This document shows positions 34,928 to 53,247 of a stretch of 64,000 nucleotides of DNA, in pieces. A program made the position numbers and the translations under genes. The notes beneath the pieces are model-generated. The model was not told where the DNA came from and searched no databases. It was given only the letters and a program-made list of their open reading frames with translations. Source of the DNA: Pseudomonas iranensis (GTDB lineage Bacteria; Pseudomonadota; Gammaproteobacteria; Pseudomonadales; Pseudomonadaceae); NCBI RefSeq assembly GCF_014268585.2, contig NZ_CP077092.1, positions 124,001 to 188,000 on the forward strand, in the 5' to 3' direction. The stretch's first letter is position 1; each line of letters starts with the position of its first letter.

Positions 34928-35893
34928 TCACTGAATCCGGCATTCAGCCAAACCGGCTTGCAGCTGTTCGATGTTCTGCGGTTCAGCGAAGATCAGCTCG
35001 ATTCTTGAGTCTTTTCGCCATTCGCTGGCTTGCCAACTCAGCTCGGCATGCTCCAGCGCATTGCCCGCAACCCAGCCATCCGTGCTGTGGATAACCAGTT
35101 TCGCCCGCTTCCAGTCAAGCGCGCTCAGCCAATAGGCGATGCGTACTTGATCAAATACCTGCCGCGGATGCCAGCGCCAACCGATGCTCCACCCACCCTC
35201 CTGCGCCTGACTCAGGCAAATCGGTTCGGCCGGATCGCTCCAGACCGCTGGCAGCTGTGCCAATCCAGTGGGCAGCGGCAGATGCCCTGCGCCTTCGTTT
35301 GCTTTTGCTTTCAGACCCGGCAGCTCGCTCAGAGGCAGTTGCGCTTGCTGCGTCCAGATCAGCCTGACGGGCGGCAACTGGCTGGCGATTTTCTCTCGAA
35401 CCGCTTCATCGAGATCTTCGGCCTTGTTCAACAACAGCAAACCCGCGCTGGCCAACGCTTGCTGCTGAGCGTCCGGCAGGGTTCTACCCGCGTGCAGTGC
35501 CTGAGCGTCCAGAACCAGCACACATGGCTGAACCGCCAGCACGCCCAGCCACGGCGCCTCGTTCAATTGCTTGAGCAACTGCGCCGGATGGCCCAGCCCG
35601 GATGGCTCGATAAACAGTCGATCCGGTCTGGCCTTGCGCAGCAGGCGGCCGAGGCCGATCTGGAATGGCGCGCCATTGACGCAACACAGGCAGCCCCCGG
35701 CCACCTCACCCAGTGCGATACCATCGGCGTCATTCGTCAGCAATGCAGCATCCAGACCGATCTGGCCGAACTCGTTGATCAGCACCGCCCAGCGCTCGTC
35801 CGCAGGCCGTTGCGCCAGCAACTGGCGAATCAGGCTGGTCTTGCCGGCGCCCAACGGGCCGGCGATGACGTGGGTCGGAATGTTCTGCAACAT
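34928..35893 (-). CDS. CobW-like G3E GTPase (putative metallochaperone)
   Basis: 321 residues. P-loop GPLGAGKTSLIRQLL (~12-26), switch EFGQIGLDAALL, the metal-binding CxCC motif GGCLCCVNG near 75, FIEPSGLGHPAQLL, and the guanine motif LLNKAED near 155. The CobW C-terminal domain follows (WRWHPRQVFDQVRIAYWLSAL). G3E GTPases with CxCC deliver zinc or other metals. Start at 35893 (MLQNIPTHVIAGP) excludes a non-protein-like extension. It stands near the zinc genes but I find no Zur-like site in its 40-base upstream gap. Confidence 0.88.
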   Translation of the reverse strand: MLQNIPTHVIAGPLGAGKTSLIRQLLAQRPADERWAVLINEFGQIGLDAALLTNDADGIALGEVAGGCLCCVNGAPFQIGLGRLLRKARPDRLFIEPSGLGHPAQLLKQLNEAPWLGVLAVQPCVLVLDAQALHAGRTLPDAQQQALASAGLLLLNKAEDLDEAVREKIASQLPPVRLIWTQQAQLPLSELPGLKAKANEGAGHLPLPTGLAQLPAVWSDPAEPICLSQAQEGGWSIGWRWHPRQVFDQVRIAYWLSALDWKRAKLVIHSTDGWVAGNALEHAELSWQASEWRKDSRIELIFAEPQNIEQLQAGLAECRIQ

Positions 35894-35933
35894 GGCGGGT
35901 ACTTTCTGCGGACAGTTATTGAGGAGATCGAAG

Positions 35934-36290
35934 ATGCGCTGGTCGGGATGGTCGTTGCTGTTGGCGCTGCTGTCGAGTGAAGCGTGGGCCGAGGCCTGCG
36001 TGGTGCACACGCAGGGCGAACGGCTCGACGTCAAAGTCTGTCAGCAGAACCGGACGATTCCGCAGAAATTGTTCAATGACGGCTTCTGCCAACCGACGCT
36101 GGCCGGGCAGAAGGTCGAGGTGCAATACGTCGACCAGTGCCCCAGCGGCGCTTTCGGCGTGTGCAGCAACGCGCAAGTCGCCAATATGCCCTATCGCCAG
36201 GATATCCACTATTACGGCGTGGCCACTGACGCTGCGTATCTCAAGCCGTATTGCGAAGGCCAGAGCCAGGGCGCCTGGCGCAAGCCCTGA
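35934..36290 (+). CDS. Small exported cysteine-containing protein, unknown function
   Basis: 118 residues. Signal peptide MRWSGWSLLLALLSSEAWA, then a short domain with six cysteines (ACVVHT, KVCQQN, GFCQPT, QCPSGAFGVCSN, PYCEGQ), suggesting disulfides in the periplasm. Good ribosome site (GAGGAG). Divergent from the CobW-like gene with only 40 bases between starts, and convergent with the DUF1826 gene. I recognise it only as a conserved Pseudomonas hypothetical. Confidence 0.7.
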   Translation: MRWSGWSLLLALLSSEAWAEACVVHTQGERLDVKVCQQNRTIPQKLFNDGFCQPTLAGQKVEVQYVDQCPSGAFGVCSNAQVANMPYRQDIHYYGVATDAAYLKPYCEGQSQGAWRKP

Positions 36291-36293
36291 ATT

Positions 36294-36944
36294 TCAGCCG
36301 AGCCAGTCGAGGGTCAGCAGCAGACGGCGCTCACCGGGCGCCGGTTGCGGCGAACGATGGATCAGGCCGAAGCCTTCATTGCCGTGCCATTTTTCGCCTT
36401 TGAGCAACGCGACGTCGCCGCTGTTGAGCTGGCGAATCGACGCTGCACCTTGCGGTTCGGCATCGGCCTGGCCAAGTTGCAGGCGATCCATCGCGCCCTC
36501 CTCAAGCCATTGGCTGCCGATGCCAGCGTAAGTAGTGATCAAGCGCACCGGCACGTGATCGACGTGGAAACGCGGACACATGGCCTTGTCCAGCACACGC
36601 AAACGCACGCCGATACGCCGCGCACCGAGCAGGCAGGCGAAGGCACTGATCAGCCATTTAAAATCGCTCACGAAACCTTCGAAACCTTGCAGATCACGCA
36701 GCCCTGCAGCCAGACCGGCGAGATCCGGTTCGGCATCTTCGTCGGGCAATTCCAGACACAGCGACTCGGCCAAGGGCTCGTTGAGTGACAGCACCAATTG
36801 CGCAAAATCGGCAATGTGCACGGGTAGCTGGCGCTGCCAGACGGCGAGATTGGTCTGGTCTTCCAGGATTCGCGTCAACGTTTGCGGTGTCACACCCTGG
36901 TGCTGCTGACGGGTAAGAAGCGACTGATCTTGGAGTGCGAGCAT
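36294..36944 (-). CDS. DUF1826 family protein, zigA operon
   Basis: 216 residues. CPRFHVDHVPVRLITTYAGIGSQWLEE and LLKGEKWHGNEGFGLIHRSPQPAPGERRLLLTLDW show an HxD...H arrangement reminiscent of a cupin or 2-oxoglutarate dioxygenase core (inference). Its start codon overlaps the zigA stop by one base (TGATG), so it is translationally coupled and should be induced with zigA under zinc shortage. DUF1826 genes are commonly found beside zinc-regulated COG0523 GTPases. Biochemical role unknown. Confidence 0.78.
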   Translation of the reverse strand: MLALQDQSLLTRQQHQGVTPQTLTRILEDQTNLAVWQRQLPVHIADFAQLVLSLNEPLAESLCLELPDEDAEPDLAGLAAGLRDLQGFEGFVSDFKWLISAFACLLGARRIGVRLRVLDKAMCPRFHVDHVPVRLITTYAGIGSQWLEEGAMDRLQLGQADAEPQGAASIRQLNSGDVALLKGEKWHGNEGFGLIHRSPQPAPGERRLLLTLDWLG

Positions 36945-38149
36945 CAGGCGGCCTCTTCGTGCCAAGGGCCGAATGGATCAGGCAGCGAACGCCAGCCTTC
37001 TACACCCATGGCCATTTCTTCGTCGGTCAGCAGACAGGCATCGAGTTCGGCGGAGAGCTGTAGGAAATCTATGTTCTGACCGATGAAAACCAGCTCCTGG
37101 CGGCAATCTCCTACGCTTGGAATCCAGTTTCCCATGATCGCCTGGGCGCTTTCCTGATCTTCGGGCCATTGATTCTTTGGCACGAAACGCCACCAGCGAC
37201 CGGCGAATCCATGACGCATCAAGCCACCGGCCTGGGACCAGCTACCGGCATCGGTGGGTTTGCTGGCGAGCCAGAAGAAGCCTTTGGAGCGCAGCAGCTT
37301 GCCGTTCAGCCAAGGCCGATCAATGAAGCTGAAGAAACGTTGCGGGTGAAATGGCCGGCGCGCGCGGTAGGCCGTCGAGGCGATGCCGTATTCCTGTGTT
37401 TCCGGGACGTGCTCACCGCGCAATTCCTTTAGCCATCCGGGCGCTTGTGCGGCCTGATCGAAATCGAAACGATCGGTGTTGAGGATTTTTTCCAGTGGGA
37501 TTTCGCCCATCACCATTGGAATGATTTCAGCCTGGGCATTGAGGCGCTTGAGGATGGCGGTGAGTTCTTCACGCTCGTGCTGGCTGATCAGGTCGATTTT
37601 GCTGATCAGCAGGACGTCGGCAAACTCGATCTGCTCGATCAACAGATCGGTGATGGAACGCTCGTCTTCTTCACCGAGAATCTCGCCGCGAGAGGCGAGG
37701 CTTTCGGCCGCCTGGTAATCGAGCAGGAAATTCACACCGTCGACCACGGTGACCATAGTATCGAGGCGAGCAATGTCGGCGAGGCTTTGCCCCTGTTCAT
37801 CGCGGAAGGTGAAGGTTTCAGCGACCGGAAGCGGTTCGGAAATGCCGGTTGATTCGATCAGCAGGTAATCGAAACGATCCTCGCGAGCGAGTTTGCTGAC
37901 TTCTTCAAGGAGGTCTTCACGTAACGTACAGCAGATACAGCCATTGCTCATTTCGATGAGTTTTTCCTCAGCGCGGTTCAGGCTGACATCACGCTGGACT
38001 TCACTGCCATCGATGTTGATCTCGCTCATATCGTTGACGATCACCGCAACGCGCAAGCCGTCTCGGTTACGTAGTACGTAATTCAAAAGTGTACTTTTTC
38101 CCGCGCCGAGAAATCCTGAAAGTACGGTGACGGGCAATTTGGCTGACAT
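36944..38149 (-). CDS. zigA: Zinc metallochaperone GTPase ZigA (COG0523)
   Basis: 401 residues. P-loop [16 protein letters not shown] (~10-25), EINIDGSEV, the CxCC zinc site [13 protein letters not shown] near 70, [18 protein letters not shown], and the guanine motif SKIDLIS. C-terminal CobW domain [15 protein letters not shown] with GFFWLASKP and a late HEEAA. These proteins are made under zinc starvation and hand zinc to essential enzymes. Start [12 protein letters not shown] with AAGGAT eight bases upstream; the longer open frame is rejected. A perfect Zur-box palindrome lies 123 bases upstream. First gene of the zigA-DUF1826 pair. Confidence 0.92.
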
Positions 38150-38271
38150 TGGATAATCCTTATAAATGGCAGCCGATTTGCGCTTTGAGGTGCGCTTGGC
38201 GTGTTGCGCTTCATTTAACCGGGTCAAAGAAGGCATACGATTGATCGGCAGCTCAGGCTGGTTGCTGCCTA

Positions 38272-38286
38272 TGTTATAGTATAACA
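38272..38286. promoter_or_regulatory. Zur box TGTTATAGTATAACA between zigA and a small exported-protein gene
   Basis: A perfect 15-base palindrome (7-1-7) matching the GTTATA-N-TATAAC core of proteobacterial Zur sites. It lies between divergent starts at 38149 and 38355 and could repress both when zinc is sufficient. Confidence 0.85.
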
Positions 38287-38354
38287 ACTCGAGCTTGCCA
38301 GTCCGACGCAGGAGATTTCGCAAATTGCCGCACCACCGATCGTGGAAACTCGCG

Positions 38355-38732
38355 ATGAACAATGCTCTGAAATACTTGCTTTTGAGCTTTGCTACGTCGC
38401 TGGCCGGTCAAGCCCAAGCGCAAATGCCGGCGCTCGCGCACTGCACACGCAGCGCTAATCTGCTGGCCTGTGTAGACGCCGACGGCAATGCCTATAGCGT
38501 CAATACGGTAGGTTCCACGCTTTACCTGCGCGGATTCGAGAAGGACGGCCATCGCTATTGGGCGCAGACCAACAGCCGCTTCGGCCAATTAACCTTTTTT
38601 ACCGGGATTGCCTCCGATGGCGAGGCTTGGGTTGGCTACACCCGTCGTGTCGGCTGGACGACCATCAACCGTTTTTCCAGCTCGGGAGGGAGCAGCGCCA
38701 GATTCACTTGCAGCCGGATGACGGGCTGCTAG
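38355..38732 (+). CDS. Small exported protein, probably Zur-controlled
   Basis: 125 residues. Signal peptide [22 protein letters not shown]; the mature part has [53 protein letters not shown], and a C-terminal pair of cysteines, so it is likely periplasmic with disulfides. Its start is 68 bases after a perfect Zur box shared with divergent zigA. I do not recognise a family; expression under zinc shortage is the only clue to its role. Confidence 0.72.
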
Positions 38733-38770
38733 TGAAAACCTTTTCATGAAAAAAGCATCGCTGAATGGAT

Positions 38771-38785
38771 TGTTATAATGTAACG
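38771..38785 (+). promoter_or_regulatory. Zur box TGTTATAATGTAACG upstream of folE2-znuCBA
   Basis: Near-palindrome GTTATA-A-TGTAAC, one pair off perfect in the arms, 30 bases before the folE2 start. Confidence 0.82.
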
Positions 38786-38815
38786 TAAATAGAGATCAAC
38801 ACGACGGTCTCAACC

Positions 38816-39712
38816 ATGAATGCTCTTACTCTCCCGGATATCGCCGCCCAATCTGCGCGTCAGGCACTGCCACTCGATTGGGTAGGCATGCGTGGGATTG
38901 CTCTACCCGTTGTGCTTGAAGGCCACCGCCTCAGCGCCAGAGTCGACGCTGGCGTGAGTCTCGATGATGGTGAAGCGCGTGGCATTCACATGTCGCGCTT
39001 GTATCTGGCACTCGAAGCCCTCGAACAGCGAAGCCTTTCTCCCGCTCTATTGCACCAAATACTCGGGTGTTTTTTGGCAAGCCACCAAGGCTTATCCGAG
39101 TGCGCATATCTGAATATTCACACCGAATTGTTGCTGAAGAGACCCGCCTTGGTCAGCCCCTTGGCTGGCTGGAAATCCTATCCGGCGACGATTTCAGCAA
39201 GCCTGAAACAGCAAATGTTCCACGTGGAACTAAAAATTGAACTGCCCTATTCCTCGACATGCCCGTGCTCCGCAGCCTTGGCAAGGCAATTGATCCAGCA
39301 GCAGTTCGTCGATGATTTCGCCAACAAGTCTCTGCAACACGCGGATGTCTTGGCATGGCTCGGCTCAACCAAAGGGATCGTAGCGACACCGCACAGCCAG
39401 CGCAGCTATGCGCAACTGCACCTGCATCTCGACAATTTCATCGACGAGCTACCGCTGACCGCGATCATCAATGACGCTGAAGCAGCCCTCGGCACCGCCG
39501 TGCAGACCGCAGTGAAGCGCCCCGACGAGCAAGCCTTCGCACTCGCCAATGGGCAAAACCTGATGTTCTGCGAAGACGCCGCGCGCCGCCTCAATCTGGC
39601 ACTGCAGCGCACGCCCGGCATCAACCAATTCCACATCCGCGTGATCCACGCCGAAAGCCTGCATGCCCATGACGCCGTCGCCGAAAGCAGCTGGCGACGG
39701 GAGCAAAAATGA
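38816..39712 (+). CDS. folE2: GTP cyclohydrolase FolE2 (type IB, zinc-independent)
   Basis: 298 residues. LPLDWVGMRGIALPVVLEG at the N-terminus, ARGIHMSRLYLALE, and the conserved metal/substrate cysteine motif SSTCPCSAALARQL near residue 150. It makes 7,8-dihydroneopterin triphosphate for folate and queuosine, replacing the zinc enzyme FolE when zinc is scarce; other metals can serve. A Zur box lies just upstream, and the stop overlaps the next start (ATGA), so it heads the znuCBA operon. The gene contains a parS-like palindrome at 39217-39230. Confidence 0.95.
   Translation: MNALTLPDIAAQSARQALPLDWVGMRGIALPVVLEGHRLSARVDAGVSLDDGEARGIHMSRLYLALEALEQRSLSPALLHQILGCFLASHQGLSECAYLNIHTELLLKRPALVSPLAGWKSYPATISASLKQQMFHVELKIELPYSSTCPCSAALARQLIQQQFVDDFANKSLQHADVLAWLGSTKGIVATPHSQRSYAQLHLHLDNFIDELPLTAIINDAEAALGTAVQTAVKRPDEQAFALANGQNLMFCEDAARRLNLALQRTPGINQFHIRVIHAESLHAHDAVAESSWRREQK
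39217..39230. other. parS-like palindrome GTTCCACGTGGAAC inside folE2
   Basis: A perfect 14-base palindrome identical to the core of the Pseudomonas ParB-binding site parS. It sits in coding sequence (FHVE codons of folE2) and is flanked by T on both sides, exactly as the second copy at 48613. Confidence 0.85.
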
Positions 39713-40377
39713 TCCGCTGCCAATCCTTGGTATGGGGCGCACCCGGCCAACCGCTGACGACGCCTTTGAGTCTTGAGTTCGAAAGCGCCAGCCTGACCGC
39801 AATCATCGGCGCCAACGGCTGCGGCAAAAGCAGTCTGCTGAAAGTCATCGCCGGTTTGCAGAAGCCCTTGGCCGGCAAGGTGGAAATGGCTGTTCCACGC
39901 CAAAGCGGCATTTCCTTTCTGCCGCAACAGCAACATTTGGATCGGCAGTTTCCAATCAGCCTCGAAGAGCTCATCGCCGCAGGTTTCTGGGGCCGTCGGC
40001 TCTCGACACAGCTGCGCACGCAGCGACTGAAAAACGCATTGGAAGACTGGCATTTGAGTGGGCTCGAACAGCGTCCGTTGATGGCCCTGTCCGGCGGTGA
40101 GCTACAACGTGCCCTGCTCGCGCGACTGAGCCTTGCTGACGCCCCGGTGCTGTTGCTGGACGAACCGCACGCCGCACTCGACGAACTCGGCCAGCAATTG
40201 CTCTGGCAACACATTCACCACTGGCACGCCGAGGGCCGGACACTGCTTGTGGTCTGCCATGACCTGGCGGCTGTCCGCCAACACATTCCGCATACCCTGC
40301 TGATCAAAAACGGCCACTGCGTGTACGGAACCAGCCGAGAACTGATCCAGCCAACACCGCACATGCAGGTCGCCTGA
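39709..40377 (+). CDS. znuC: Zinc ABC transporter ATPase (ZnuC-like)
   Basis: 222 residues. Walker A IIGANGCGKSSLLK (~33-46), Q-loop SFLPQQQHLDRQF, signature LSGGELQRALLARL near 130, Walker B VLLLDEPHAALD and the switch histidine LVVCHDL. It starts inside the folE2 stop and its own stop overlaps the permease start (TGATG). Drives zinc import with the two genes after it. The classic Pseudomonas znuA-zur-znuC-znuB locus is organised differently, so this is probably a second, Zur-controlled system; the symbol is functional. Confidence 0.85.
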   Translation: MIRCQSLVWGAPGQPLTTPLSLEFESASLTAIIGANGCGKSSLLKVIAGLQKPLAGKVEMAVPRQSGISFLPQQQHLDRQFPISLEELIAAGFWGRRLSTQLRTQRLKNALEDWHLSGLEQRPLMALSGGELQRALLARLSLADAPVLLLDEPHAALDELGQQLLWQHIHHWHAEGRTLLVVCHDLAAVRQHIPHTLLIKNGHCVYGTSRELIQPTPHMQVA

Positions 40378-41246
40378 TGCTCGCCACCGTCAGCCATTTC
40401 TGGCAGCCGTTCAGCGAATTCGTGTTCATGCGCCGCGCCTTGCTCGGCGGCCTGGTGCTGGCATGCAGCACGGCGCCCTTGGGTGTTTTTCTGATACTCA
40501 GGCGTATGAGTTTGATCGGTGACGCCGTCGCCCACGGCATTCTCCCTGGTGCAGCGCTGGGATTCTGGTTTGCCGGTTTGAGTCTTCCCGCACTCACCCT
40601 CGGTGGCTTGGGAGCCGGGCTGAGCATGGCCGGACTCGCGGCCTGGATCACCCGGCGAACGGGGTTGCGAGAAGATGCCAGCCTCGCCGCGATCTATCCG
40701 ATCTCACTGGCCAGCGGCGTTTTGATCCTTGGCATCGCCGGCAAGCGCCTCGACCTTCTGCACTTGCTGTTCGGCTCAGCGTTGGCCGTAGACGGGCCGA
40801 CACTGACCGGCATGCTGTGGGTCTCGGCGGTCAGCCTCATGGCGATGGCGGCGATCTACAAACCTCTGCTGCTGGACACACTGGACCCATTGTTCTTGCG
40901 CACGGTCAGTCGCCTCGGGCCGCTGGCTCATGGCGTGTTCCTGACTCTGGTCGTGCTGAATCTGGTGATCGGCTTTCAGGCCATCGGCGCACTGATGGTA
41001 GTCGGCCTGATGATGCTTCCGGCTGCTGCGTCGAGATTTTGGAGTCGCCGCCTACCGCTACTGATCGCCATCGCCGCGGTCATGGGCTGCGTGTCTGTGT
41101 GGCTCGGCTTGCTGCTGTCGTTCTACTACTCGCTGCCCAGCGGCCCGGCCATCGTGCTGGTCACGGGGGTCGGCTATCTGCTGTCGGTGGTGTTCGGACC
41201 GGTTCACGGTTTGCTGCGCCGCCCGCCTTTGCTCACATCCCAATGA
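40377..41246 (+). CDS. znuB: Zinc ABC transporter permease (ZnuB-like)
   Basis: 289 residues, about eight membrane helices of the ABC-3 family: RALLGGLVLACSTAPLGVFLILRRMSLIGDAVAHGILPGAALGFW near the start (the AVAHGILPG loop is a family hallmark), LEDASLAAIYPI-like cytoplasmic loop and FQAIGALMVVGLMMLPAAASRFW near 205. Sits between the ATPase and binding protein genes and shares their transcript. Confidence 0.88.
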   Translation: MLATVSHFWQPFSEFVFMRRALLGGLVLACSTAPLGVFLILRRMSLIGDAVAHGILPGAALGFWFAGLSLPALTLGGLGAGLSMAGLAAWITRRTGLREDASLAAIYPISLASGVLILGIAGKRLDLLHLLFGSALAVDGPTLTGMLWVSAVSLMAMAAIYKPLLLDTLDPLFLRTVSRLGPLAHGVFLTLVVLNLVIGFQAIGALMVVGLMMLPAAASRFWSRRLPLLIAIAAVMGCVSVWLGLLLSFYYSLPSGPAIVLVTGVGYLLSVVFGPVHGLLRRPPLLTSQ

Positions 41247-41257
41247 GGTGTTTCCCG

Positions 41258-42133
41258 ATGCGCGCTCTACTCGTGCTGTTCAGCCTGATGCTGTCGATGT
41301 CCTTGTCAGCCGCCGAAAAACTGCCGGTGGTCACCAGCTTCAGCATCCTTGCCGACATGGTTCATCAGGTCGGCGGCGAGCACGTTGAGATCACCAACAT
41401 GGTCGGCGCGGACGCCGATGCGCACACCTACGAGCCGACACCGGACGATGCCAAGGCGTTGCTCAAAGCCAAAGTGATCATCAAGAACGGCCTCGGTTTC
41501 GAACCTTGGCTGGATCGCCTGGTGACCAGCACCGACAGCAAGGCAACGGTGATCAGTGCCAGTCGCGGGGTGATTCCACGTTCGCTCGATGAAGATGGCG
41601 AAACCGTTCCGGATCCACACGCCTGGCACAATCTGGCGAACGCTGAGTTGTACGTCGCCAACATCACCAAGGCGCTGATCGCCGCCGACCCGGCCAACAA
41701 GGCTGACTACGAGCGCAACAGCCAGACCTACCTCAAGCAGATCTATGCCCTGCTCGCCGAAGCCAAAAACAAACTCGGCGCGCTGCCGCCGGGTAATCGC
41801 AAGATCGTCACCAGCCACGATGCCTTTGGCTATCTGGGTCAGGCCTATGGCATCGACTTTATCGCGCCACAGGGTTTATCCACCGAACGCGAACCCTCCG
41901 CCGCCGAAGTGGCTGCGCTGATCAGGCAGATTCGCCAGGCCAAGGTCAAAGCGGTGTTCATGGAAAACATCAAGGACGCGCGCCTGCTCAAGCAGATCGC
42001 GGATGAAAGCGGCGCGCACATTGGCGGCACGCTGTACTCGGATGCACTGGCGGCGAGCGGACCGGCGAGCACCTTTACCGGACTGTTCGAATACAACCTC
42101 AATACGCTGTACAAGGCGTTGAGTCAGCCATGA
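41258..42133 (+). CDS. znuA: Zinc ABC transporter binding protein (ZnuA/TroA-like)
   Basis: 291 residues. Signal peptide MRALLVLFSLMLSMSLSAA, then the cluster A-I metal-binding fold: VVTSFSILADMVHQVGG, GADADAHTYEPTPDDAKAL (first ligand His), DPHAWHNLANAEL (second), KIVTSHDAFGYLGQAYGI (third) and a late GGTLYSDAL with the aspartate ligand. There is no long His-rich loop, unlike ZnuA of E. coli, so manganese or a broader range cannot be excluded; the Zur box favours zinc. Last gene of the folE2-znuCBA operon. Confidence 0.88.
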   Translation: MRALLVLFSLMLSMSLSAAEKLPVVTSFSILADMVHQVGGEHVEITNMVGADADAHTYEPTPDDAKALLKAKVIIKNGLGFEPWLDRLVTSTDSKATVISASRGVIPRSLDEDGETVPDPHAWHNLANAELYVANITKALIAADPANKADYERNSQTYLKQIYALLAEAKNKLGALPPGNRKIVTSHDAFGYLGQAYGIDFIAPQGLSTEREPSAAEVAALIRQIRQAKVKAVFMENIKDARLLKQIADESGAHIGGTLYSDALAASGPASTFTGLFEYNLNTLYKALSQP

Positions 42134-42866: not shown

Positions 42867-44306
42867 ATGGATTTTTTCGGACCGCACATTTTCGGTTACC
42901 TGATCGCCCTGTTGCACACACTCGGTTCGATCGCTGCGATCCATGCGGTGCTCACCGTGCGCACTGCGCAAGGCTCGATCGCTTGGGCATTGTCGCTGAT
43001 CTTCATTCCCTACCTCACGCTTATTCCATATCTGGTATTTGGTCGCAGCACCTTCGATGGCTACATCAAGGCGCGGCGCCAGGCCAACGAGCAGATGCGC
43101 CTGGCCATCTCAGAATTGAACTGGCGCCCATGGGTTGAAGAAGCCCTGGCCGCTCGCGCGTCGAGTGCCTACGCCTCACTGCGCGCAATGCCGAAACTGG
43201 GGCGCATGCCGTGCCTGGCGAACAACGAGGTGCAACTGCTGGTGAACGGCACCGCGACTTTCGATGCGATTTTTCAGGCGATCGCACAAGCGAAGGAAGC
43301 CGTGCTGATCCAGTTCTTCATCATTCACGACGATCGGCTGGGCCAGCGTTTGCGTGATTTGCTGTTGAAGAAAGCCGCCGAAGGCGTGTCCATTCATTTG
43401 CTCTATGACCGCATTGGCAGCCATGCCCTGCCCCATCATTACGTGCAGGCGCTGCGTGATGCCGGCGTCGAGGTCAAAGCCTTTGCCACGCGCAGCGGCT
43501 GGCTCAACCGCTTTCAGGTCAACTTCCGCAACCACCGCAAAATCGTTGTGGTCGATGGCGTAGTCGGCTTTGTCGGCGGGCATAACGTCGGCGATGAATA
43601 CATGGGTGAGAAGCCACCATTGGCGCCGTGGCGTGACACCCACGTCAAAGTCCGCGGGCCGGTGGTGGCCTGCATGCAGGAATCGTTCGCCGAAGATTGG
43701 TTCTGGGCTGCTCGTACTCTGCCGCCGTTGATCCTTCCGGATACATACCCGGAGGATGGCGTGCTTTGCCAATTGCTCGCCAGCGGCCCGGCGGATGCCT
43801 ACGAAACCTGCTCGCTGTTTTTCGTCGAAGCCATTCACGCAGCAACGCAACGCGTATGGATCACCAGCCCTTACTTCGTCCCGGACGAAGCGGTGTTCGC
43901 GGCATTGAGGTTGGCGGTGTTGCGTGGTATCGATGTGCGCCTGCTGTTGCCGTCACGGCCTGATCACCGCATTGTCTATGCCGCGTCCAGCCTGTATGCC
44001 TTCGAGGCGGTGCGTGCCGGCGTGCGGGTGTTCCGCTATCGACCGGGTTTTCTGCATCAGAAAGTGGTGTTGATCGACAGCGAAATCAGCGCCATCGGCA
44101 GCGCCAATCTGGACAATCGCTCGTTCCGCCTGAATTTCGAAGTGATGTTGCTGACCGTCGACAGCGAGTTCGCCGCCGCCGTGGAACACATGCTCAATGA
44201 CGATTTCGCCCTGGCCGATGAAGTGGCCAAAGAAGAAAGCCGGGAGATCCATCGCCTGCAACAGGTCGGCATGCGGATCGCCCGGCTGATTTCGCCGATA
44301 CTCTGA
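42867..44306 (+). CDS. cls: Cardiolipin synthase (ClsA type)
   Basis: 479 residues. Two N-terminal membrane helices ([45 protein letters not shown]), then two phospholipase D catalytic motifs: [25 protein letters not shown] (HxK near 220) and [24 protein letters not shown] (HxK near 400). Condenses two phosphatidylglycerols to cardiolipin. ATG 42867 with GGAG/AAGG upstream; an in-frame TTG nine codons earlier is less likely. Faces the CFA-type gene tail to tail. Confidence 0.95.
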
Positions 44307-44316
44307 GCGCCCCGTT

Positions 44317-45504: not shown

Positions 45505-45681
45505 GGAAAATCCCCCCTTGTTTCAGACGTCTGATCTGAGGGTAGACCAACCTGGAAAAATAGCAGGCTATCGATTCGATCAGCCTTGTCTATCGTGATC
45601 GGCACATCGGCTGAACGCCACAGACGACGCGCCTTACGATAGATGACTGCCTGCGCACTCGGCGGTTCGATGAATTTTCTT

Positions 45682-47592
45682 TCATTTATCCCGAGGGTCG
45701 AGCCTGAGCAATGGCTCCTGAAAGCGCAGCAAACGTCCGGCGTTGCCCAACACCAACAGGGTGCTCAGGTTATGCAGCAGCGCCGCGATCATCGCCCCGG
45801 CCGCACCAAGCCAGCCGAACGCCGCGAAGACCACGATGGCCAGCGTCCAGCCGAGGCCGATAATCACGTTGACCTGCAAAGTACGCCGGCACTGACGACT
45901 CAAGCGCACGCAAGTACCGAGGCGACGCAAGTCGCTGCCGATCAACACGATGTCCGCCGACGCCAAGGCAATGTCGGCCCCGCCAGCGCCCATCGCCACG
46001 CCGACCACGCCGGCCTTGAGCGCGAGTGAATCGTTGATGCCGTCGCCTACCACCATCGGACGAAAGCCGTGATCGATTTCCTTGAGCACGCGATTGAGTT
46101 TGTCCTCCGGAAGCGCTTGCGCCTGGACTTCGTTCAGCCCGACTTCCAGCGCCAACGTTCGCGCAACGCTCTGGCGATCGCCCGTCAGCAGGAGCTGGCG
46201 TCCCAGCCCCAGTTCACGCAATTCGCTCAAGGCAAAGCCCGCCTCCGGTTTGATGCTGTCGGCGAGCAAAAGCCAGGCGAGGAATGCACCGTTCAAAGCC
46301 AGGCCGGCAATCGGGCCATCGTGCTCAGGAACAAGGGTGGTTGTGATACCCAGTTGCGCGAACAACTCTGGACGACCGAGCGCAGCTTCGCCCCTCTCTG
46401 TCGTCGCCACTACGCCCAGGCCTTGGCGCTCATGGATGTTGGTCAGAGGCCAATAGGCTTCCTGATCAACCAGCCCAGCGAGTGCTCGGCTCACCGGATG
46501 ACTGCTTGCCGCGCCAAGACTGGCGGCCAGTGTCTGCACTTCGGCGGTGTCCGCATCCAGGCTGTCGATCGACTGCAAACGCAAGGTGCCGTACGTCAGC
46601 GTGCCGGTCTTGTCGACCACCAGCGAGGTCAGATCGGCGAGTTCTTCGAGGAACGCCGAGCTGCGAATCAGAATCCCGTGACGCGCGGCGACGGCGACAC
46701 CGGCAATCGCCGTGGCCGGCGCCGACAGCACCAACGCACACGGACACGCCGCCACCAATACCGCGAGCATCGCCTGTGCATCATGGGTGACGAACCAGGT
46801 CACCGCCGCCAGCAACAAGACCAGCACCATGTAGCTGCCGGCATAGCGTTCTAGCAATCGCGTGATCGGCGGTTTCGAGCGCTCGGCGTTTTGCATCAGG
46901 GCGATGACTTTGCCCAGGGTGGATTCGTCGCCGGTGCGGGTGACTTCGACGCGCAGCAATCCATCGAGGTTGATTGCGCCGCCGAACACCAGCATGCCGA
47001 CGCCAGCTTCCACCGGTACCGACTCACCGGTAATCGAAGCGGTATCAAGGCTCGCCTGCCCTGATAACACACGACCGTCCGCCGGCACCCGATCACCGGC
47101 CCGCACCTCGACAATATCGCCAGCACTGAGCGTGCCGTTGTCCACTTCGATGATCGAACCGTCCGCTTGCAGCTTGCGCGCATGGCTGCGGGTCAGCCGG
47201 CCAAGCGCATTGATCGCTTCCTGGGAACCGATGACGCTACGCTCTTCCAGCACATGGCCAAAGATCATGATGATTGGCAACAACGCCGCGGTGAGCAGAT
47301 CACCGGTCGCCCAAGCGCCGAGCATGGCCAGCGCAATCAATTGATCGGTGATGCCGTGCAGGCTTGGGTAACGCAGGCTGTACCACGCCGAACGCATCAC
47401 CGGAACCGCTACCAGCAACGAGGCGAAACCGAGCAGCAACTGGCTGACACCGGTTTGCTCCGGGAGCATCCAGCGCCAGAGCAAACCCAGACCCAGCAAC
47501 CCGAGCGCAAGCATCGCCAGGGTCAATTGGCGCGCGGCGCGACGTTGTTCGGCCGAGGACAACAGACTCGGAGCAGCGGTGGTCGCCGTCAT
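45682..47592 (-). CDS. hmtA: HmtA-like P1B-type metal ATPase (zinc/copper)
   Basis: 636 residues. No N-terminal heavy-metal-associated domain and no His-rich tail. Motifs: TGES near 188-191 (actuator), CPC near 283-285 in a membrane helix (metal site), DKTGTLTYG at 327 (phosphorylated Asp), SSHPVSRAL (nucleotide-binding HP), and VVGDGINDSLALKAG. In P. aeruginosa the related HmtA (PA2435) is reported to import zinc and copper rather than export them. Here it is the last gene of a four-gene operon with three SPFH proteins behind a Zur-like site, which fits zinc uptake. Start overlaps the preceding stop by four bases. Confidence 0.85.
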   Translation of the reverse strand: MTATTAAPSLLSSAEQRRAARQLTLAMLALGLLGLGLLWRWMLPEQTGVSQLLLGFASLLVAVPVMRSAWYSLRYPSLHGITDQLIALAMLGAWATGDLLTAALLPIIMIFGHVLEERSVIGSQEAINALGRLTRSHARKLQADGSIIEVDNGTLSAGDIVEVRAGDRVPADGRVLSGQASLDTASITGESVPVEAGVGMLVFGGAINLDGLLRVEVTRTGDESTLGKVIALMQNAERSKPPITRLLERYAGSYMVLVLLLAAVTWFVTHDAQAMLAVLVAACPCALVLSAPATAIAGVAVAARHGILIRSSAFLEELADLTSLVVDKTGTLTYGTLRLQSIDSLDADTAEVQTLAASLGAASSHPVSRALAGLVDQEAYWPLTNIHERQGLGVVATTERGEAALGRPELFAQLGITTTLVPEHDGPIAGLALNGAFLAWLLLADSIKPEAGFALSELRELGLGRQLLLTGDRQSVARTLALEVGLNEVQAQALPEDKLNRVLKEIDHGFRPMVVGDGINDSLALKAGVVGVAMGAGGADIALASADIVLIGSDLRRLGTCVRLSRQCRRTLQVNVIIGLGWTLAIVVFAAFGWLGAAGAMIAALLHNLSTLLVLGNAGRLLRFQEPLLRLDPRDK

Positions 47593-48638
47593 TGACTGGC
47601 TCCTTGAATGATCAACCGGGAATCGTCTTTCGGATTGACGGTGGTGACCGACCCGGCCTGATCAAGGATCTTCGGTATGCGCTCGCGATACAGACGCAGG
47701 AGCATTTGCGGGTCGGCAGACGTAGCCAGACTCGAGACGGTTGCGGTATCGGTCGAGGCTTTTGCAAGACGCTCGCCCGCCTGCGCGTGAGCCACCTGGA
47801 GCGTGCGGTCTGCCTGTTCGTTGGCCGACTGGGTAAGTTTTTCGGCATCGGTGCGCGCGTTAGCCACAGCTTTGTCAGCCTGCTGACTGGCGGTCAGAAC
47901 CGCATTGAAGGCACTGACCGCCGGCTCCGGCAGACTTGATTGCACATCCACCCGCGACACCTCGATGCCGATGCCCTGCCCGCTCGCCTTCAGTTCAGCG
48001 AGACGCGCGTTGATGCCTTGCACCAGATCACCGCGCAATCGCTCACGGCGCTCGGCCGCCTGATTGTCGGCGCCGATCAATTCCGGGCGAGCGACCAGAA
48101 TGGTGTCGAGATCTCGCGCGGCGGTCAGGACCACGGCGCTGCGCGTCACTAGCTGATCGAGAGCTGGCAGCACATGCTCGCCTTGCAACACGAATTCGTA
48201 CGGATCGGAGACTTGGTAAAACACTCGCACGTCCAATTGCACTACGCCGGCGTCACCGGTCAATAAATAACCAGACCCGGCGAGTGCATCGCTCAATGGC
48301 GTTGCGAAGGACGCCACCCGGTCAGCCTTCAACGCTTCGTCACTGCGCAACAGATTTTCCACTCGACGCTCGATCACCCGATCCGCCGCCGGCAGCAGAA
48401 CCACCTGCTCAAAAGGTTGCGGCCATGCCCATAACAGTCCGGCATTCTGAACGCGATCCAGCGCACCGAAGTGCAGTACTACTGCGCGCTTTTGCGGATC
48501 AATCTGCCGGACATTGGAGAATGCCCATGCCAGCGCCGCCAGCACCGTGATCGCATACAGCGCGATAAAAGCCAGACGCCCCGCCTGAATCCACGGACTG
48601 TTCAACGCATGTGTTCCACGTGGAACTTCTTCGCTCAT
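47589..48638 (-). CDS. SPFH-domain membrane protein (HflC-like), third of the SPFH operon
   Basis: 349 residues. A short cytoplasmic start (MSEEVPRGTHALNSP), one membrane helix (LAFIALYAITVLAALAWAFSN), then an SPFH domain (VRQIDPQKRAVVLHFGALDRVQNAGLLWAWPQPFEQVV), and a long helical region (ADKAVANARTDAEKLTQSANEQADRTLQVAHAQAGERLAKA) typical of prohibitin/HflC assemblies. It overlaps genes on both sides by four bases, so stoichiometric expression with the other SPFH proteins and HmtA is expected. A parS-like palindrome falls in its first codons. Confidence 0.85.
   Translation of the reverse strand: MSEEVPRGTHALNSPWIQAGRLAFIALYAITVLAALAWAFSNVRQIDPQKRAVVLHFGALDRVQNAGLLWAWPQPFEQVVLLPAADRVIERRVENLLRSDEALKADRVASFATPLSDALAGSGYLLTGDAGVVQLDVRVFYQVSDPYEFVLQGEHVLPALDQLVTRSAVVLTAARDLDTILVARPELIGADNQAAERRERLRGDLVQGINARLAELKASGQGIGIEVSRVDVQSSLPEPAVSAFNAVLTASQQADKAVANARTDAEKLTQSANEQADRTLQVAHAQAGERLAKASTDTATVSSLATSADPQMLLRLYRERIPKILDQAGSVTTVNPKDDSRLIIQGASQ
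48613..48626. other. parS-like palindrome GTTCCACGTGGAAC at the start of an SPFH gene
   Basis: Second perfect copy of the Pseudomonas parS core in this window, 9.4 kb from the one in folE2, with the same T on each side. It encodes VPRGT in the N-terminus of the SPFH protein. Confidence 0.85.
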
Positions 48639-49678
48639 GGCTGCGATCCGGCTTTGTTGTCGAGCGTCGGTGGGCCGTCGACCAATACGCGGAAAGGTGC
48701 GGCATCGGTGCGCAGAATCAATTTGGTGTCCGGCGTAACGATGGTGCCGAGGGTATCGAGGGAGCGCAGCAGGTTGTAAAGCTGCGGCGAGCTGGCGTAG
48801 GCGCGACCATAAATCTGCGCAGCCTCGACTCGCGATTGCGCTTCAATGTCAGCGGCTTTCACCGTCGCATCAGCCTGGACGATTCGCGCATCGCGCTCGG
48901 CGGCGGAACGGATTTGCGCCGCTTCGCGTTTGCCAACAGCCGTGCGTTCGGTAGCAATGGTTTCACGCTCGGCACGCATGCGGTCGACCGTGGCGCTGAG
49001 CGTGACCGAGGGCAAAGTCAGCCGCTCGATGCCGACCTGCACCACGCGCACGCCATATGTAGCGAGCAACTGTTGATCGATCTGCTGACGCAACTGCGTT
49101 TCAAAATCGCCGATGCGCACTTGTTTGGCATCAGTGTTGACCAGATTGGCCAGATCGAAACCGCTGGCCGTGGTCTCCAGTGCTGAGCCGACAAAGGTGC
49201 GAATCTGCCGCGCTGCTTCGTCCGGCTGATTCTGCACGGCACGCATGAAACGCTGCACGTGTTCAGGATCACCCTGCACCTGCCACGCGACGTAGGCCTG
49301 AACGATGATGCGCAAACCATCCTTGGTGCCGACGTCCTGCAAACCACTTGAGGTGGTACGTAGACGCAAGTCCACCGGGATCGCCGCTTCGAACGGTGCC
49401 GGCCAGCGCCAATTCAACCCGGGATCGAGCAAGACCCGCGACGGACTACCGAAACGGGTGATGACCGTGGCTTCACCGGAGCGCACTTGCACCAGACTCG
49501 CGGCGGCAATGGCAAACGCTACCAGCAACGCAGCCCAGCCCATACGCCGCCAGGGAAATGGTCCAACTTCTGGCACCTCGCCGTGATGGTGGTGATGACC
49601 ATGATGATGGTGATGCCCGCCGTGGCCGTGATCGTGGCCGCTGTGGTCTTGAACGTCATGAACAGGCGACTGGCTCAA
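48635..49678 (-). CDS. SPFH-domain membrane protein with histidine-rich N-terminus (HflK-like)
   Basis: 347 residues. Residues 7-32 contain 15 histidines (HDHGHGG then two runs of five), a likely cytoplasmic zinc-binding tail. One membrane helix follows (MGWAALLVAFAIAAASLVQV), then an SPFH domain (RSGEATVITRFGSPSRVLLDPGLNWRWPAPFEAAIPVDLR) and a helical region (RMRAERETIATERTAVGKREAAQIRSAAERDARIVQADA). HflK is the closest textbook relative, but HflK has no such His tail. Overlaps both neighbours by four bases. The His tail is the best direct sequence evidence that the operon handles zinc. Confidence 0.87.
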   Translation of the reverse strand: MSQSPVHDVQDHSGHDHGHGGHHHHHGHHHHHGEVPEVGPFPWRRMGWAALLVAFAIAAASLVQVRSGEATVITRFGSPSRVLLDPGLNWRWPAPFEAAIPVDLRLRTTSSGLQDVGTKDGLRIIVQAYVAWQVQGDPEHVQRFMRAVQNQPDEAARQIRTFVGSALETTASGFDLANLVNTDAKQVRIGDFETQLRQQIDQQLLATYGVRVVQVGIERLTLPSVTLSATVDRMRAERETIATERTAVGKREAAQIRSAAERDARIVQADATVKAADIEAQSRVEAAQIYGRAYASSPQLYNLLRSLDTLGTIVTPDTKLILRTDAAPFRVLVDGPPTLDNKAGSQP

Positions 49679-51636
49679 TGGGTGGCTCCTGGTTGAGCGG
49701 TGGTGCGGGGGGACGACGGATCAGTCGGCAGTGTGAAAGTACGCAGATCGATGGTTGGCGCATTTGCGCTGCCGCCGATTCGATGGTCGAGTATCACCAA
49801 CTTGGCTTTACTCATGCCCTGACTGAGCTGGCTGAGATATTGCTCCAGCACGAAGGCCTGGCCAGCACTGGCGAAGGCTTTCTGTTCGGCGCTGAATTTC
49901 AGGTCGGCGGTTTGCGCGGCTGCATTGATCTCCCGCGCATTGGCCGTAGCCTGATCCCGCGCCGTACTCGCCTGCAACTGCGCCTCGTTAGTGGCCTGCG
50001 CAGCCGCCCCGCGTTCACGAGCGATCAACGCCTGCGCGCCGATCTGCGCCGCTTGCACACTGTGATATGCATTCGCCGCGCCGGCCGGTGGATGAATCGC
50101 TTCGACGACTGTGGCGAGGATTTCCACGCCACTGTTCAATCTGTTCAGATCGCTTTGCACTGCGCGACCGATTTCCTCGGCCAGCCCTGCCCTGTCGTCG
50201 CCGAGCAAACCGTCGAGGGTGCGCGAGGCAAAATCGTGAACCAGGATGCGGCTGGCAGTGCTGCGAATCAGTGTCGGTACATCGGCGCTGTTATAAGTCG
50301 CGGCGAGTGCCGCCTCGTCGTTCAAACCGATGCGATAAACGAAGCGCACGTCCATATTGACGATTTGCAGGCCCTGTTGCGCGCCGCGGCTGCTGGCGAT
50401 GACCTGGGACTTGTCATTAACGTGGCTGGCGTCCCACAAACGGTTGGCGGTCAGCGGCGCCGGGCCTTCAGCGGAGTCGGACTGCACGGCGATTGGCTTG
50501 TCGCCGACACTGGTTGCCAGTTCATGAACCACACCGTTTTCAACGGAGATCACACGCCCCAATGGCCAGGGCAAACCGGCATGTAAACCCGGGCCGAACA
50601 CCTGTACCGGTTTACCGAAGCGCTCGTAGATGCCGCGACCGTGCAGGGGAATTTCATGTACGCCGGTCAGCAGCCAACCGCTCAGGGCGACCACTGCCAA
50701 CACCGGCAACAAGGCCCGGCGCATGTAACTGAAGGCCCAGATCTGCCGCAGATCGATGCCGAACCGATTGTGCATTTCATGCTGCAACGCCAGCCACGGC
50801 TGCGGCGGCCAGCGCAGCATATCGGCGATAAAACTGCGCGCCAGCAGGGTCGGTTCGAGTTGTTCACGCCGCGGGCTGAAGACAGACAGTAACGCGCGCA
50901 ACAGCAGTTCGCCGGCAACCAACATTGGCACGACTGCGCTGAGCACCGCCACGCGTACCGGCCAGACTGCGCTTTCGCTGACAAACAACAGACATAGCGC
51001 ACCGACCAACAGGGTGATGATCACCACCCGGGTCAGTTGTGCCAGCGCAGCCGCTTCCGGCCATTGCGCCGGCGGTTCCTGCGCCAGTTGCCGCTCCAGC
51101 ACCAGCAGGGCAAACGCCAGCAACAACGCCAATGCCCCACCGATGCTCGCCGACAGCCCCAAGGCCGCCGCAGGCAACGTGAGATTCCACACCTGCTCAA
51201 TACCAAGCAGAACCAGCAACGCCCAGCCGCCGAGCCACAACGTCGGCGCACCGATTTGTCCAAGCAGATGGCGGCTCTGCTGACTCAATCGCTCCAGCAG
51301 CCTTTCGTACCAGCCCTCGGCTGCAGCGCCCTCCTCCACAACGGTCGGTTGCGAAGCTGGCGGATGCATCACCCGCGCGCGCCAGTGCGTCACCCACCAC
51401 GCCGATTGCAGACCGGCGACCAGCACCAGCAACGCCGCGCTCTGATTGACCAACAACGGCAACCACAGGGACTGCGGCGCAAACAGGCCGACGAAAAACG
51501 CCAGCACCCAGCCCAAACCGACCAATGCGCCAAGTCCATAAGCCAGCCGACGTAATTCGCGTGACTGCGCAGCTGCTTGCTGAAAGCGCGGCAATCCGTT
51601 GACTGGCGTGGCGTCCAACTCAAGATCGACTTGCAT
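49675..51636 (-). CDS. Large polytopic SPFH protein, first gene of the SPFH-HmtA operon
   Basis: 653 residues. About seven membrane helices in the first ~310 residues (LAYGLGALVGLGWVLAFFVGLF; SLWLPLLVNQSAALLVLVAGLQ; TLWLGGWALLVLLGIEQVW; GLSASIGGALALLLAFALLVL; VVIITLLVGALCLLFV; VAVLSAVVPMLVAGELLL; ALLPVLAVVALSGWLL), then an SPFH domain (IPLHGRGIYERFGKPVQVFGPGLHAGLPWPLGRVISV) and a helical tail (AAAQATNEAQLQASTARDQATANAREINAAAQ). Ordinary HflK/HflC have a single membrane helix, so the polytopic N-terminus is special. A Zur-box-like palindrome ends 33 bases before its start. Confidence 0.85.
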   Translation of the reverse strand: MQVDLELDATPVNGLPRFQQAAAQSRELRRLAYGLGALVGLGWVLAFFVGLFAPQSLWLPLLVNQSAALLVLVAGLQSAWWVTHWRARVMHPPASQPTVVEEGAAAEGWYERLLERLSQQSRHLLGQIGAPTLWLGGWALLVLLGIEQVWNLTLPAAALGLSASIGGALALLLAFALLVLERQLAQEPPAQWPEAAALAQLTRVVIITLLVGALCLLFVSESAVWPVRVAVLSAVVPMLVAGELLLRALLSVFSPRREQLEPTLLARSFIADMLRWPPQPWLALQHEMHNRFGIDLRQIWAFSYMRRALLPVLAVVALSGWLLTGVHEIPLHGRGIYERFGKPVQVFGPGLHAGLPWPLGRVISVENGVVHELATSVGDKPIAVQSDSAEGPAPLTANRLWDASHVNDKSQVIASSRGAQQGLQIVNMDVRFVYRIGLNDEAALAATYNSADVPTLIRSTASRILVHDFASRTLDGLLGDDRAGLAEEIGRAVQSDLNRLNSGVEILATVVEAIHPPAGAANAYHSVQAAQIGAQALIARERGAAAQATNEAQLQASTARDQATANAREINAAAQTADLKFSAEQKAFASAGQAFVLEQYLSQLSQGMSKAKLVILDHRIGGSANAPTIDLRTFTLPTDPSSPRTTAQPGATH

Positions 51637-51668
51637 AACACCCCGAAAATGTAGGCTCTGCGTTCATA

Positions 51669-51685
51669 GCGTTACGATATAACGC
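51669..51685 (-). promoter_or_regulatory. Zur-box-like palindrome upstream of the SPFH-HmtA operon
   Basis: GCGTTACGATATAACGC: outer GCGTTA/TAACGC arms match perfectly, the inner positions are CG-A-TA. It lies 33 bases upstream of the first SPFH gene. Less perfect than the site at 38272 but the same layout (GTTAnn-N-nnTAAC). It is also 161 bases before lpd on the other side. Confidence 0.75.
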
Positions 51686-51846
51686 AAACTGTGAAATATT
51701 CGTACACAATTACGCTTATTCAAGGATGCCGCAGCTGTCGCTTGCCTGAAGCCTTGACCGAAATGTTCGGCGCAGCTCATATTACGCACATAATTTTTAT
51801 CGCGACTAATCTTGGCTATCCCCATCGAGCAATCTGGAGCAAGCGC

Positions 51847-53247
51847 ATGAGCAACTATGACGTAGTGATTCTGGGCGGTGGCCCCGGCGGTTATAACGCA
51901 GCGATCCGCGCGGGCCAGCTCGGGCTCAAGGCCGCCTGCGTCGAAGGACGTGCGACCCTCGGCGGCACCTGCCTGAACGTCGGTTGCATGCCGTCCAAAG
52001 CCTTGTTGCACGCCTCAGAGCTGTACGCCGCTGCGGTGGGCACGGAGTTCGCCAATCTCGGCATCGAGGTCAAACCGACGCTGAACCTTGCGCAGATGAT
52101 GAAGCAGAAGGACGAAAGCGTCGCCGGCCTGACCAAGGGCATCGAATTTCTGTTTCGCAAGAACAAGGTCGACTGGATCAAGGGTTGGGGTCACATCGAC
52201 GGCCCGGGCAAAGTCTCCGTGACCGACGATCAGGGCAACAAGAGCGAGCTCAGCGCCAAGGACATCATCATCGCCACCGGCTCCGAACCCACTCCCCTGC
52301 CCGGCGTCGAGATCGACAACCAGCGCATCCTCGATTCCACCGGCGCACTGTCGTTGAGTGAGGTGCCCAAACATCTGGTGGTCATTGGTGCCGGGGTGAT
52401 CGGCCTGGAGCTGGGTTCGGTGTGGCGGCGACTCGGCGCGCAGGTCACCGTGGTCGAATACCTTGATCGCATCTGCCCCGGCGTCGATGGCGAGGCCGGC
52501 AAGACCTTGCAGCGCTCGCTGAGCAAACAAGGCATTGCCTTCAAATTGAGTTCCAAGGTCACCAACGCCACCAGCTCAGCTACAGGCGTGCAACTGAGCG
52601 TCGAGCCTGCCGCCGGTGGCACGGCTGAGCTGATCGAAGCCGATTATGTGCTGGTGGCCATCGGGCGCCGGCCATACACCCAGGGCTTGGGGCTGGAGAA
52701 CGTCGGCCTGAGTACCGACAAACGCGGCATGCTCGCCAACAAGCAACATCGCACCGAAGCGGCTGGGGTCTGGGTCATCGGCGACGTCACGTCCGGCCCG
52801 ATGCTCGCGCACAAGGCAGAAGATGAGGCCATGGCCTGCGTCGAGCAGATCCACGGCAAGGCCGGCGAGGTCAATTACGCGCTGATCCCCAACGTCATCT
52901 ACACCCAACCTGAACTCGCCAGCGTCGGCCAGACCGAGGAACAGCTCAAGGCCGAGGGCCGCGCCTACAAGGTCGGCAAGTTTCCCTTCACTGCCAACAG
53001 CCGGGCGAAGATCAATCACGAAACCGAGGGCTTTGCCAAAGTCCTCGCCGACGAGCGCACGGACGAAGTGCTTGGCGTGCATCTGGTCGGGCCGAGCGTG
53101 AGCGAAATGATCGGTGAGTTTTGCGTGGCGATGGAATTCAGCGCGTCAGCCGAGGACATTGCCCTGACCTGCCATCCGCACCCGACGCGTTCGGAAGCGT
53201 TGCGTCAGGCAGCGATGAATGTCGAGGGGATGGCGACTCAGATGTAG
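51847..53247 (+). CDS. lpd3: Dihydrolipoyl dehydrogenase
   Basis: 466 residues. FAD site MSNYDVVILGGGPGGYNAAIRAGQLG, redox disulfide GGTCLNVGCMPSKALLH near 42-52, NAD site VVIGAGVIGLELGSVWRRLGAQVTVVE, second FAD motif VWVIGDVTSGPMLAHKAEDEA, and the dimer-interface active site CHPHPTRSEALRQAA near 445. Reoxidises lipoyl-E2 of 2-oxoacid dehydrogenases. Standing alone without E1/E2 genes, it fits the third paralogue of Pseudomonas (PA4829-like), hence the tentative symbol. ATG 51847 gives the family N-terminus. Confidence 0.92.
   Translation: MSNYDVVILGGGPGGYNAAIRAGQLGLKAACVEGRATLGGTCLNVGCMPSKALLHASELYAAAVGTEFANLGIEVKPTLNLAQMMKQKDESVAGLTKGIEFLFRKNKVDWIKGWGHIDGPGKVSVTDDQGNKSELSAKDIIIATGSEPTPLPGVEIDNQRILDSTGALSLSEVPKHLVVIGAGVIGLELGSVWRRLGAQVTVVEYLDRICPGVDGEAGKTLQRSLSKQGIAFKLSSKVTNATSSATGVQLSVEPAAGGTAELIEADYVLVAIGRRPYTQGLGLENVGLSTDKRGMLANKQHRTEAAGVWVIGDVTSGPMLAHKAEDEAMACVEQIHGKAGEVNYALIPNVIYTQPELASVGQTEEQLKAEGRAYKVGKFPFTANSRAKINHETEGFAKVLADERTDEVLGVHLVGPSVSEMIGEFCVAMEFSASAEDIALTCHPHPTRSEALRQAAMNVEGMATQM

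Follow-up and report, generated by a model that had tools for sequence, protein, structure and literature searches.

Three SPFH-domain genes and hmtA, the gene for an HmtA-type P1B ATPase, form a four-gene operon behind a Zur-like operator in a 64,000-nucleotide stretch of Pseudomonas iranensis DNA (the window; bases 124001-188000 of a single 6.07 Mb contig). These genes were found as a fixed set across genomes and plasmids. We propose that their products are one machine, in which an HflKC-like assembly of the three SPFH proteins would enclose or gate HmtA during zinc starvation, and we consider this reading evenly balanced. The parts list and its regulation are already known, in one species. 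New are the constancy of this four-gene set, its occurrence on plasmids of three classes, a membrane domain that resembles cation diffusion facilitator (CDF) transporters in a structural model, and a conserved His tail. The operon and its operator comprise the following features.

51669-51685, minus strand: Zur-like operator GCGTTATATCGTAACGC, a perfect 6-5-6 palindrome.
49675-51636, minus strand: SPFH-1 gene, 653 residues, ATG start; seven hydrophobic segments, then an HflK-like SPFH domain.
50866..51588, minus strand: SPFH-1 residues 17-257; six-helix membrane domain, nearest solved structures CDF zinc transporters (AlphaFold2, VIA-align, Foldseek).
50005..50637, minus strand: SPFH-1 residues 334-544; Band_7 domain.
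48635-49678, minus strand: SPFH-2 gene, 347 residues, TTG start; HflC-like, one transmembrane (TM) helix, His-rich N-terminal tail.
49583..49660, minus strand: SPFH-2 residues 7-32; His-rich tail, 15 His.
47589-48638, minus strand: SPFH-3 gene, 349 residues, ATG start; HflK-like, one TM helix.
45682-47592, minus strand: hmtA gene, 636 residues, ATG start; HmtA-type P1B ATPase.
46738..46746, minus strand: HmtA CPC motif, residues 283-285, in membrane segment M4; from the alignment, 34 of 34 rows.
45769..45774, minus strand: HmtA His607-Asn608 in membrane segment M6 (LHNLST); from the alignment, 33 of 33 rows with letters.

SPFH-1 and HmtA were searched for separately in whole genomes, with thresholds of our own choice; the genome samples overlap, and their counts must not be summed. 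Among 149 Pseudomonas genomes, 92 had SPFH-1 matches at an E-value of 0.001, five of which (G006, G014, G070, G079 and G140) were weak and partial only (E 7e-8 or worse). The other 87 are the same 87 genomes that contain HmtA at E 1e-120, so that the five weak ones are the sole difference. Both proteins also occurred in the same 11 of 398 Pseudomonadota (E 1e-30 for SPFH-1 and 1e-90 for HmtA) and in the same five of 99 genomes from the family of G344 (1e-40 and 1e-100). At the latter thresholds, G254 itself was the only genome with either protein among 151 from its family. A scan of 369 genomes of the class for SPFH-1 only matched the window's genome alone. Among 72,556 plasmids, SPFH-1 (E 1e-10) and HmtA (E 1e-60) were retrieved from the same 10 records, and these records also hold the 10 SPFH-2 matches above 60% identity. 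The other 22 plasmid SPFH-2 records lie below 60%, the best among the matches listed reaching 29.4%. The next P-type ATPase of the window's genome is 35% identical to HmtA (E 3.8e-79), so the HmtA thresholds fall in a real gap in this genome; since 3 to 12 candidates were scored per genome, a divergent solo HmtA could be missed. A preliminary description of the operon had expected the trio to co-occur with hmtA elsewhere. This was borne out, as the SPFH-1 and HmtA sets coincide in every paired scan, which is strongly opposite to a pattern of SPFH genes occurring mostly without hmtA.

The 108 loci compared for gene order consist of the window, 80 of the 229 relatives located in genome contigs, 20 stretches chosen from whole genomes and 7 of 10 plasmid stretches. 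These loci were picked for SPFH-1, and the finding is that the other three genes were always there. In all 108, as well as in three of three loci fetched later, the four genes share a strand and keep the same order. In the window, adjacent genes overlap by four bases at each of the three joints (TTGA, ATGA and ATGA), which agrees with the overlap length first described and corrects the sequence at the first joint, given there as ATGA. Four-base overlaps are kept in 98, 92 and 94 of the 108 loci for the three joints, counts that depend on our start-codon rule. Pairwise distance matrices of the four proteins correlate with r 0.88-0.98 (32 loci). Split genes were seen in L083 (SPFH-3), L096 (HmtA), L118 (SPFH-2) and L131 (SPFH-1 and SPFH-3), with a stop or frame change that may be sequencing error or decay.

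The closest named SPFH-1 relative found is from Pseudomonas siliginis (95% identical). The plasmid copies come from Rhizobium, Paraburkholderia, Burkholderia ubonensis and Klebsiella aerogenes; the plasmids of the last two were typed as conjugative, and Rhizobium accounts for seven of the 10, some near-identical. In E. coli, the SPFH-2 DNA of L160 had no match in 20,395 records. Since the trio was never seen without this one pump, the simplest account would be physical cooperation, and the co-inheritance suggests a pump that does not act by itself but within, or together with, a protein cage. A bolder version, which we offer tentatively and think somewhat doubtful as a whole, is that HmtA is never stand-alone and would be the engine of a four-protein nanocompartment. 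Its SPFH dome would control the metal access of HmtA, SPFH-1 would contribute a CDF-like membrane domain and SPFH-2 a cytoplasmic His tail, and the module would travel through alpha-, beta- and gammaproteobacteria, also on plasmids.

The Zur-like palindrome noticed at the outset is present, and its spacing to the SPFH-1 ATG at 51636 is 32 bases rather than 33. Perfect 6-5-6 palindromes are frequent, with 18 in the window, so plain palindrome statistics were dropped as evidence and the operator was judged by its core match and its conservation. Its core scores 9/10 against GTTATNNNATAAC, which we take to be the Zur core consensus. Only three sites in the 64 kb reach at least 9/10 (one shuffled window gave 1), and the other two (38273-38285 and 38772-38784) sit in an island of zinc genes, the core at 38772 being 31 bases before folE2. 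The core alone is unspecific, as GTTATNNNRTAAC has 12 matches genome-wide on both strands, with a fully palindromic site counted twice, versus 8 for the reversed control. Across the 108 loci, the upstream core match is 9-10 of 10 in 89, 8/10 in 14 and lower in five, whereas simple shuffles give 0.8 expected loci at 9/10 or better; as the loci are related (80 come from one Pseudomonas-only scan), these non-independent counts are a measure of conservation. No good Zur-like site was recognized upstream in L137, L139, L140, L141 and L142. When 21 loci were checked for strict palindromes, the rhizobia-type loci L120, L136 and L138 had a common perfect palindrome, GATACGTAATAACGTATC, upstream of SPFH-1, which may be their own alphaproteobacterial Zur site. 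L159, which belongs to the G344 family, perhaps Enterobacteriaceae, has GTTATAAAATAAC upstream. A sigma-70 scan of 45450-51860 found no promoter-like site at the operator on the minus strand, and its two promoter-like sites were both on the plus strand, with 1.5 expected. These results support the initial view of a single operon that follows a Zur-like site and lies among zinc genes, and Zur-like cores precede it in most of the related loci. The zinc setting is provided by the following neighbour.

34931..42133, no strand assigned: zinc-starvation island with CobW, DUF1826, ZigA, FolE2 and an AztABC-like zinc ABC transporter.

The island runs from 42133 down to 34931 and lies 3.5 kb beyond hmtA. 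ZigA is a zinc metallochaperone GTPase, and each component of the AztABC-like transporter scores below its AztA, AztB or AztC equivalog cut-off. Genes for a cyclopropane fatty acid synthase-like (cfa) and a cardiolipin synthase-like (cls) protein, named from sequence, occupy 42840-45504 between hmtA and the island. They recur in the flanks of 86 of the 108 loci. These lipid genes, and the microdomains to which SPFH proteins are generally linked in published excerpts, favour a view in which the three proteins organize a general microdomain of the membrane under zinc starvation and HmtA is co-expressed with no specific complex. However, neither cls nor cfa turned up in the flanks, mostly only 3-8 kb, of the remaining 22 loci (the 12 from outside the genus and 10 from within it), while HmtA is always present, and a general scaffold would need no particular pump. 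We consider a general microdomain unlikely, and on the same tally cls and cfa were ruled out as part of the system. On a Paraburkholderia sprentiae plasmid (L140), the operon lies 3.5 kb from a zinc ABC transporter, and a GTP-binding protein and a PCu(A)C copper chaperone are also encoded nearby.

Published statements used here come from excerpts of PMC4542158, PMC11761036, PMC8531726, PMC10393844, PMC8456098, PMC12407830, PMC2636767, PMC9431628 and PMC13086221. The Pseudomonas aeruginosa cluster PA2434-PA2439 likewise has three SPFH genes with hmtA (PA2437-2439, or PA14_33110/33080/33070, or PaFlo7/6/5); we equated it with the window's genes by annotation and gene order, not by alignment. It is also induced by zinc starvation and bound by Zur at its first promoter. 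Pederick 2015 reported that PA2434, PA2435 and PA2437-PA2439 rise 5.6 to 14.4-fold when znuA is mutated and that the cluster has a weak predicted Zur site, and Ducret 2021 showed by electrophoretic mobility shift assay that Zur shifts the promoter of PA2439, the first of the cluster. A proteomics preprint found HmtA and PA2437-2439 raised without zinc, calling this significant for PA2438 and PA2439, and the zinc-starvation response to N-acetylcysteine includes PA2437-2439. The induction and Zur binding anticipated for the window's operon are hence in print for its counterpart and not new. In these excerpts, the P. aeruginosa literature presents the three genes either as modulators of FtsH or as unassigned flotillins, and its accounts lack the fixed HmtA pairing, the CDF-like part and the conserved His tail. 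The excerpts of a paper on trio deletion in PA14 do not name hmtA, and its main text mentions zinc once, regarding FtsH. It calls the trio 'conserved among Pseudomonadales', yet lists it in 2 of 10 other Pseudomonas reference genomes, compared with SPFH-1 in 87 of 149 here. No published link between the trio and HmtA function was among the matches listed, in a search that subscription papers mostly lay beyond.

HmtA scores 516.5 bits against the heavy-metal P-type family TIGR01525, above its cut-off of 346.25. It has no metal-binding domain before its first TM helix, in line with the lack of metal-binding tails described at first. The CPC motif of M4 is invariant in the alignment, and M6 reads LHN(L/F/V/M)(S/G)T in every row with letters, one row being truncated. 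This segment aligns to LVHEGST of chain 7qbz, which we take to be sCoaT of the P1B-4 type, and to LADTGAT of chain 4umv, presumably ZntA. The columns of His607-Asn608 hold HE in the former and DT in the latter. An Asp in M6 characterizes the ZntA/CadA exporters. It was not found in HmtA, where all 33 rows have His-Asn, and the nearest paralogue in this genome (L155) has ADMG at the position. Judged from these motifs, the putative ion site is of neither the 7qbz nor the 4umv type.

HmtA might instead be an exporter that removes a competing metal (copper or cobalt) or loads the periplasm, fed by the cytoplasmic His tail. Its M6 and GH.LE columns do resemble chain 7qbz, such a tail would suit a cis-side donor, and many of the 120 listed relatives of the Paraburkholderia HmtA are named Zn2+/Cd2+-exporting ATPase, against the reported import. 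Nevertheless, Zur control is typical of uptake, and published overexpression data indicate import, according to excerpts of a 2022 review. Export seems to us improbable; the direction, which sequence cannot tell, is one that we infer.

All three SPFH proteins exceed the Pfam Band_7 cut-off of 23.6 bits (SPFH-1, 74.8; SPFH-2, 116; SPFH-3, 71). By profile, their best solved relatives are HflK for SPFH-1 (E 1.4e-13) and SPFH-3 (E 2.9e-17) and HflC for SPFH-2 (E 4.3e-25). None reaches the NCBIfam HflK or HflC equivalog cut-offs (159.4 and 134.4 bits), the best scores being 56.3 (hflK) for SPFH-1, 96.4 (hflC) for SPFH-2 and 90.4 (hflK) for SPFH-3. The whole genome has five Band_7 matches, the operon trio and two at 812-813 kb, which we read as the genome's own hflK/hflC pair. 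FtsH is itself a zinc protease. The trio could be a zinc-starvation version of HflKC that modulates FtsH, with HmtA merely co-regulated. All three having HflK or HflC as nearest solved relatives agrees with this, and in the excerpts the N-acetylcysteine paper calls the trio FtsH modulators and the proteomics preprint points to a link with FtsH (HflB). However, the scores below both equivalog cut-offs and the presence of a separate putative hflK/hflC pair speak against it, and it leaves unexplained why none of the genomes sampled had the trio without this ATPase. We regard FtsH modulation as a distinctly unlikely account of the operon.

The preliminary count of 15 His in residues 7-32 of SPFH-2 was correct. 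At least seven His occur in the first 45 residues of SPFH-2 in 106 of the 108 loci; the tail of L118, whose first count used the wrong piece, was seen separately, which brings the total to 107. The tail is predicted to be cytoplasmic and the SPFH domain periplasmic, because of the homology to HflK/HflC, with their known membrane topology, and the arginines just before the helix. In SPFH-1, the long loops between helices 2-3 and 6-7 hold most Arg and Lys, which fits the same orientation. Given this predicted location, the tail is more likely a zinc acceptor or sensor than a periplasmic collector. The SPFH part of SPFH-1 has five His (352, 371, 405, 515 and 525) that are invariant in 34 of 34 rows, and none is His in the genome's own HflK, where one falls in a gap. 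One of them belongs to a GLH stretch shared with other SPFH proteins. The enrichment is modest (Fisher p 0.014) and the AlphaFold2 model of this part is poor; a metal site is possible, as a lead only.

SPFH-1 has seven hydrophobic segments, in line with the seven or so membrane helices first noticed, and modelling refines this picture, as the first six helices look CDF-like. The N-terminal part modelled alone with AlphaFold2 had a predicted local distance difference test score of 87.7 and a predicted template modelling score of 0.83, and VIA-align placed CDF zinc transporters nearest to the six helices before the last one. No Pfam family matched the membrane part at E 0.01. At E 10, there was no match to the cation-efflux family among six N-terminal parts scanned; two of them gave five weak, unrelated matches, all below cut-off. 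In canonical CDF transporters, TM2 and TM5 supply the metal site with acidic residues and His. Within TM2 of SPFH-1, neither Asp nor Glu nor His is dominant in at least 27 of 34 rows, and the conserved candidates of TM5 are only Glu194, at its edge, and Arg203. SPFH-1 thus differs from CDF transporters (YiiP, ZnT) in having no Pfam cation-efflux match in the N-terminal parts scanned and no conservation of the canonical metal residues in the aligned rows.

We envisage that, when zinc falls, Zur would leave the operator and the operon would be made. Two HflK-like and one HflC-like SPFH proteins would build a ring or dome like that of HflKC on the periplasmic side of the inner membrane, which would enclose or gate HmtA much as HflKC encloses FtsH. 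HmtA would move zinc, probably into the cell, the direction reported for PAO1. The CDF-like part of SPFH-1 may be a membrane docking or lipid-ordering partner of HmtA and not a separate pump. In SPFH-2, the cytoplasmic His tail would accept zinc or sense occupancy, in place of the metal-binding tail that is missing from HmtA.

The initial statement that SPFH proteins have no established role of this kind was too strong. A preprint, in the excerpts seen, describes the enclosure of FtsH by HflK/C as known and reports that stomatin encloses aquaporin-1 and UT-B. The E. coli complex of HflK-HflC and FtsH likewise combines HflK-like and HflC-like subunits with a membrane enzyme, a partnership that we infer here. 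It differs in that the operon has three subunits, one with seven hydrophobic segments and all below the HflK/HflC cut-offs, and the partner would be a metal P-type ATPase instead of FtsH. Human stomatin likewise places an SPFH dome around a membrane transporter, whereas its dome is cytosolic and no operon is involved, and the preprint gives SPFH proteins a single membrane segment.

Several points weigh against an SPFH enclosure of HmtA. Genes of one operon may also be inherited together because they share regulation and are transferred as a block, and the genomes and plasmids in the samples are related to one another. Not every copy requires the His tail, since the Klebsiella plasmid copy L139 and L161, a relative from the G344 family, lack it; these two loci are a natural control for tail function. 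By Foldseek, the CDF likeness is weak (best E 0.1, TM score 0.40, probability 0.98), with none of 317 matches at E 0.001. In the published excerpts, hmtA mRNA is low and unrepressed by zinc (Ducret 2021), the 2022 review makes hmtA the exception among Zur-bound uptake promoters, and HmtA import rests on one 2009 overexpression study that the review describes. PA14 was only slightly affected by loss of the trio, with about 20% less biofilm and Galleria attenuation listed.

If the proposed enclosure is true, bacterial SPFH assemblies would gain a dedicated transport client beside FtsH. It would explain why HmtA has been puzzling when considered alone, as a claimed importer in an exporter family, with mRNA unrepressed by zinc. 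Zinc starvation would be the condition in which to look for PaFlo5-7 deletion phenotypes, and the operon would offer a small, inducible and partly plasmid-borne system for learning what SPFH cages do.

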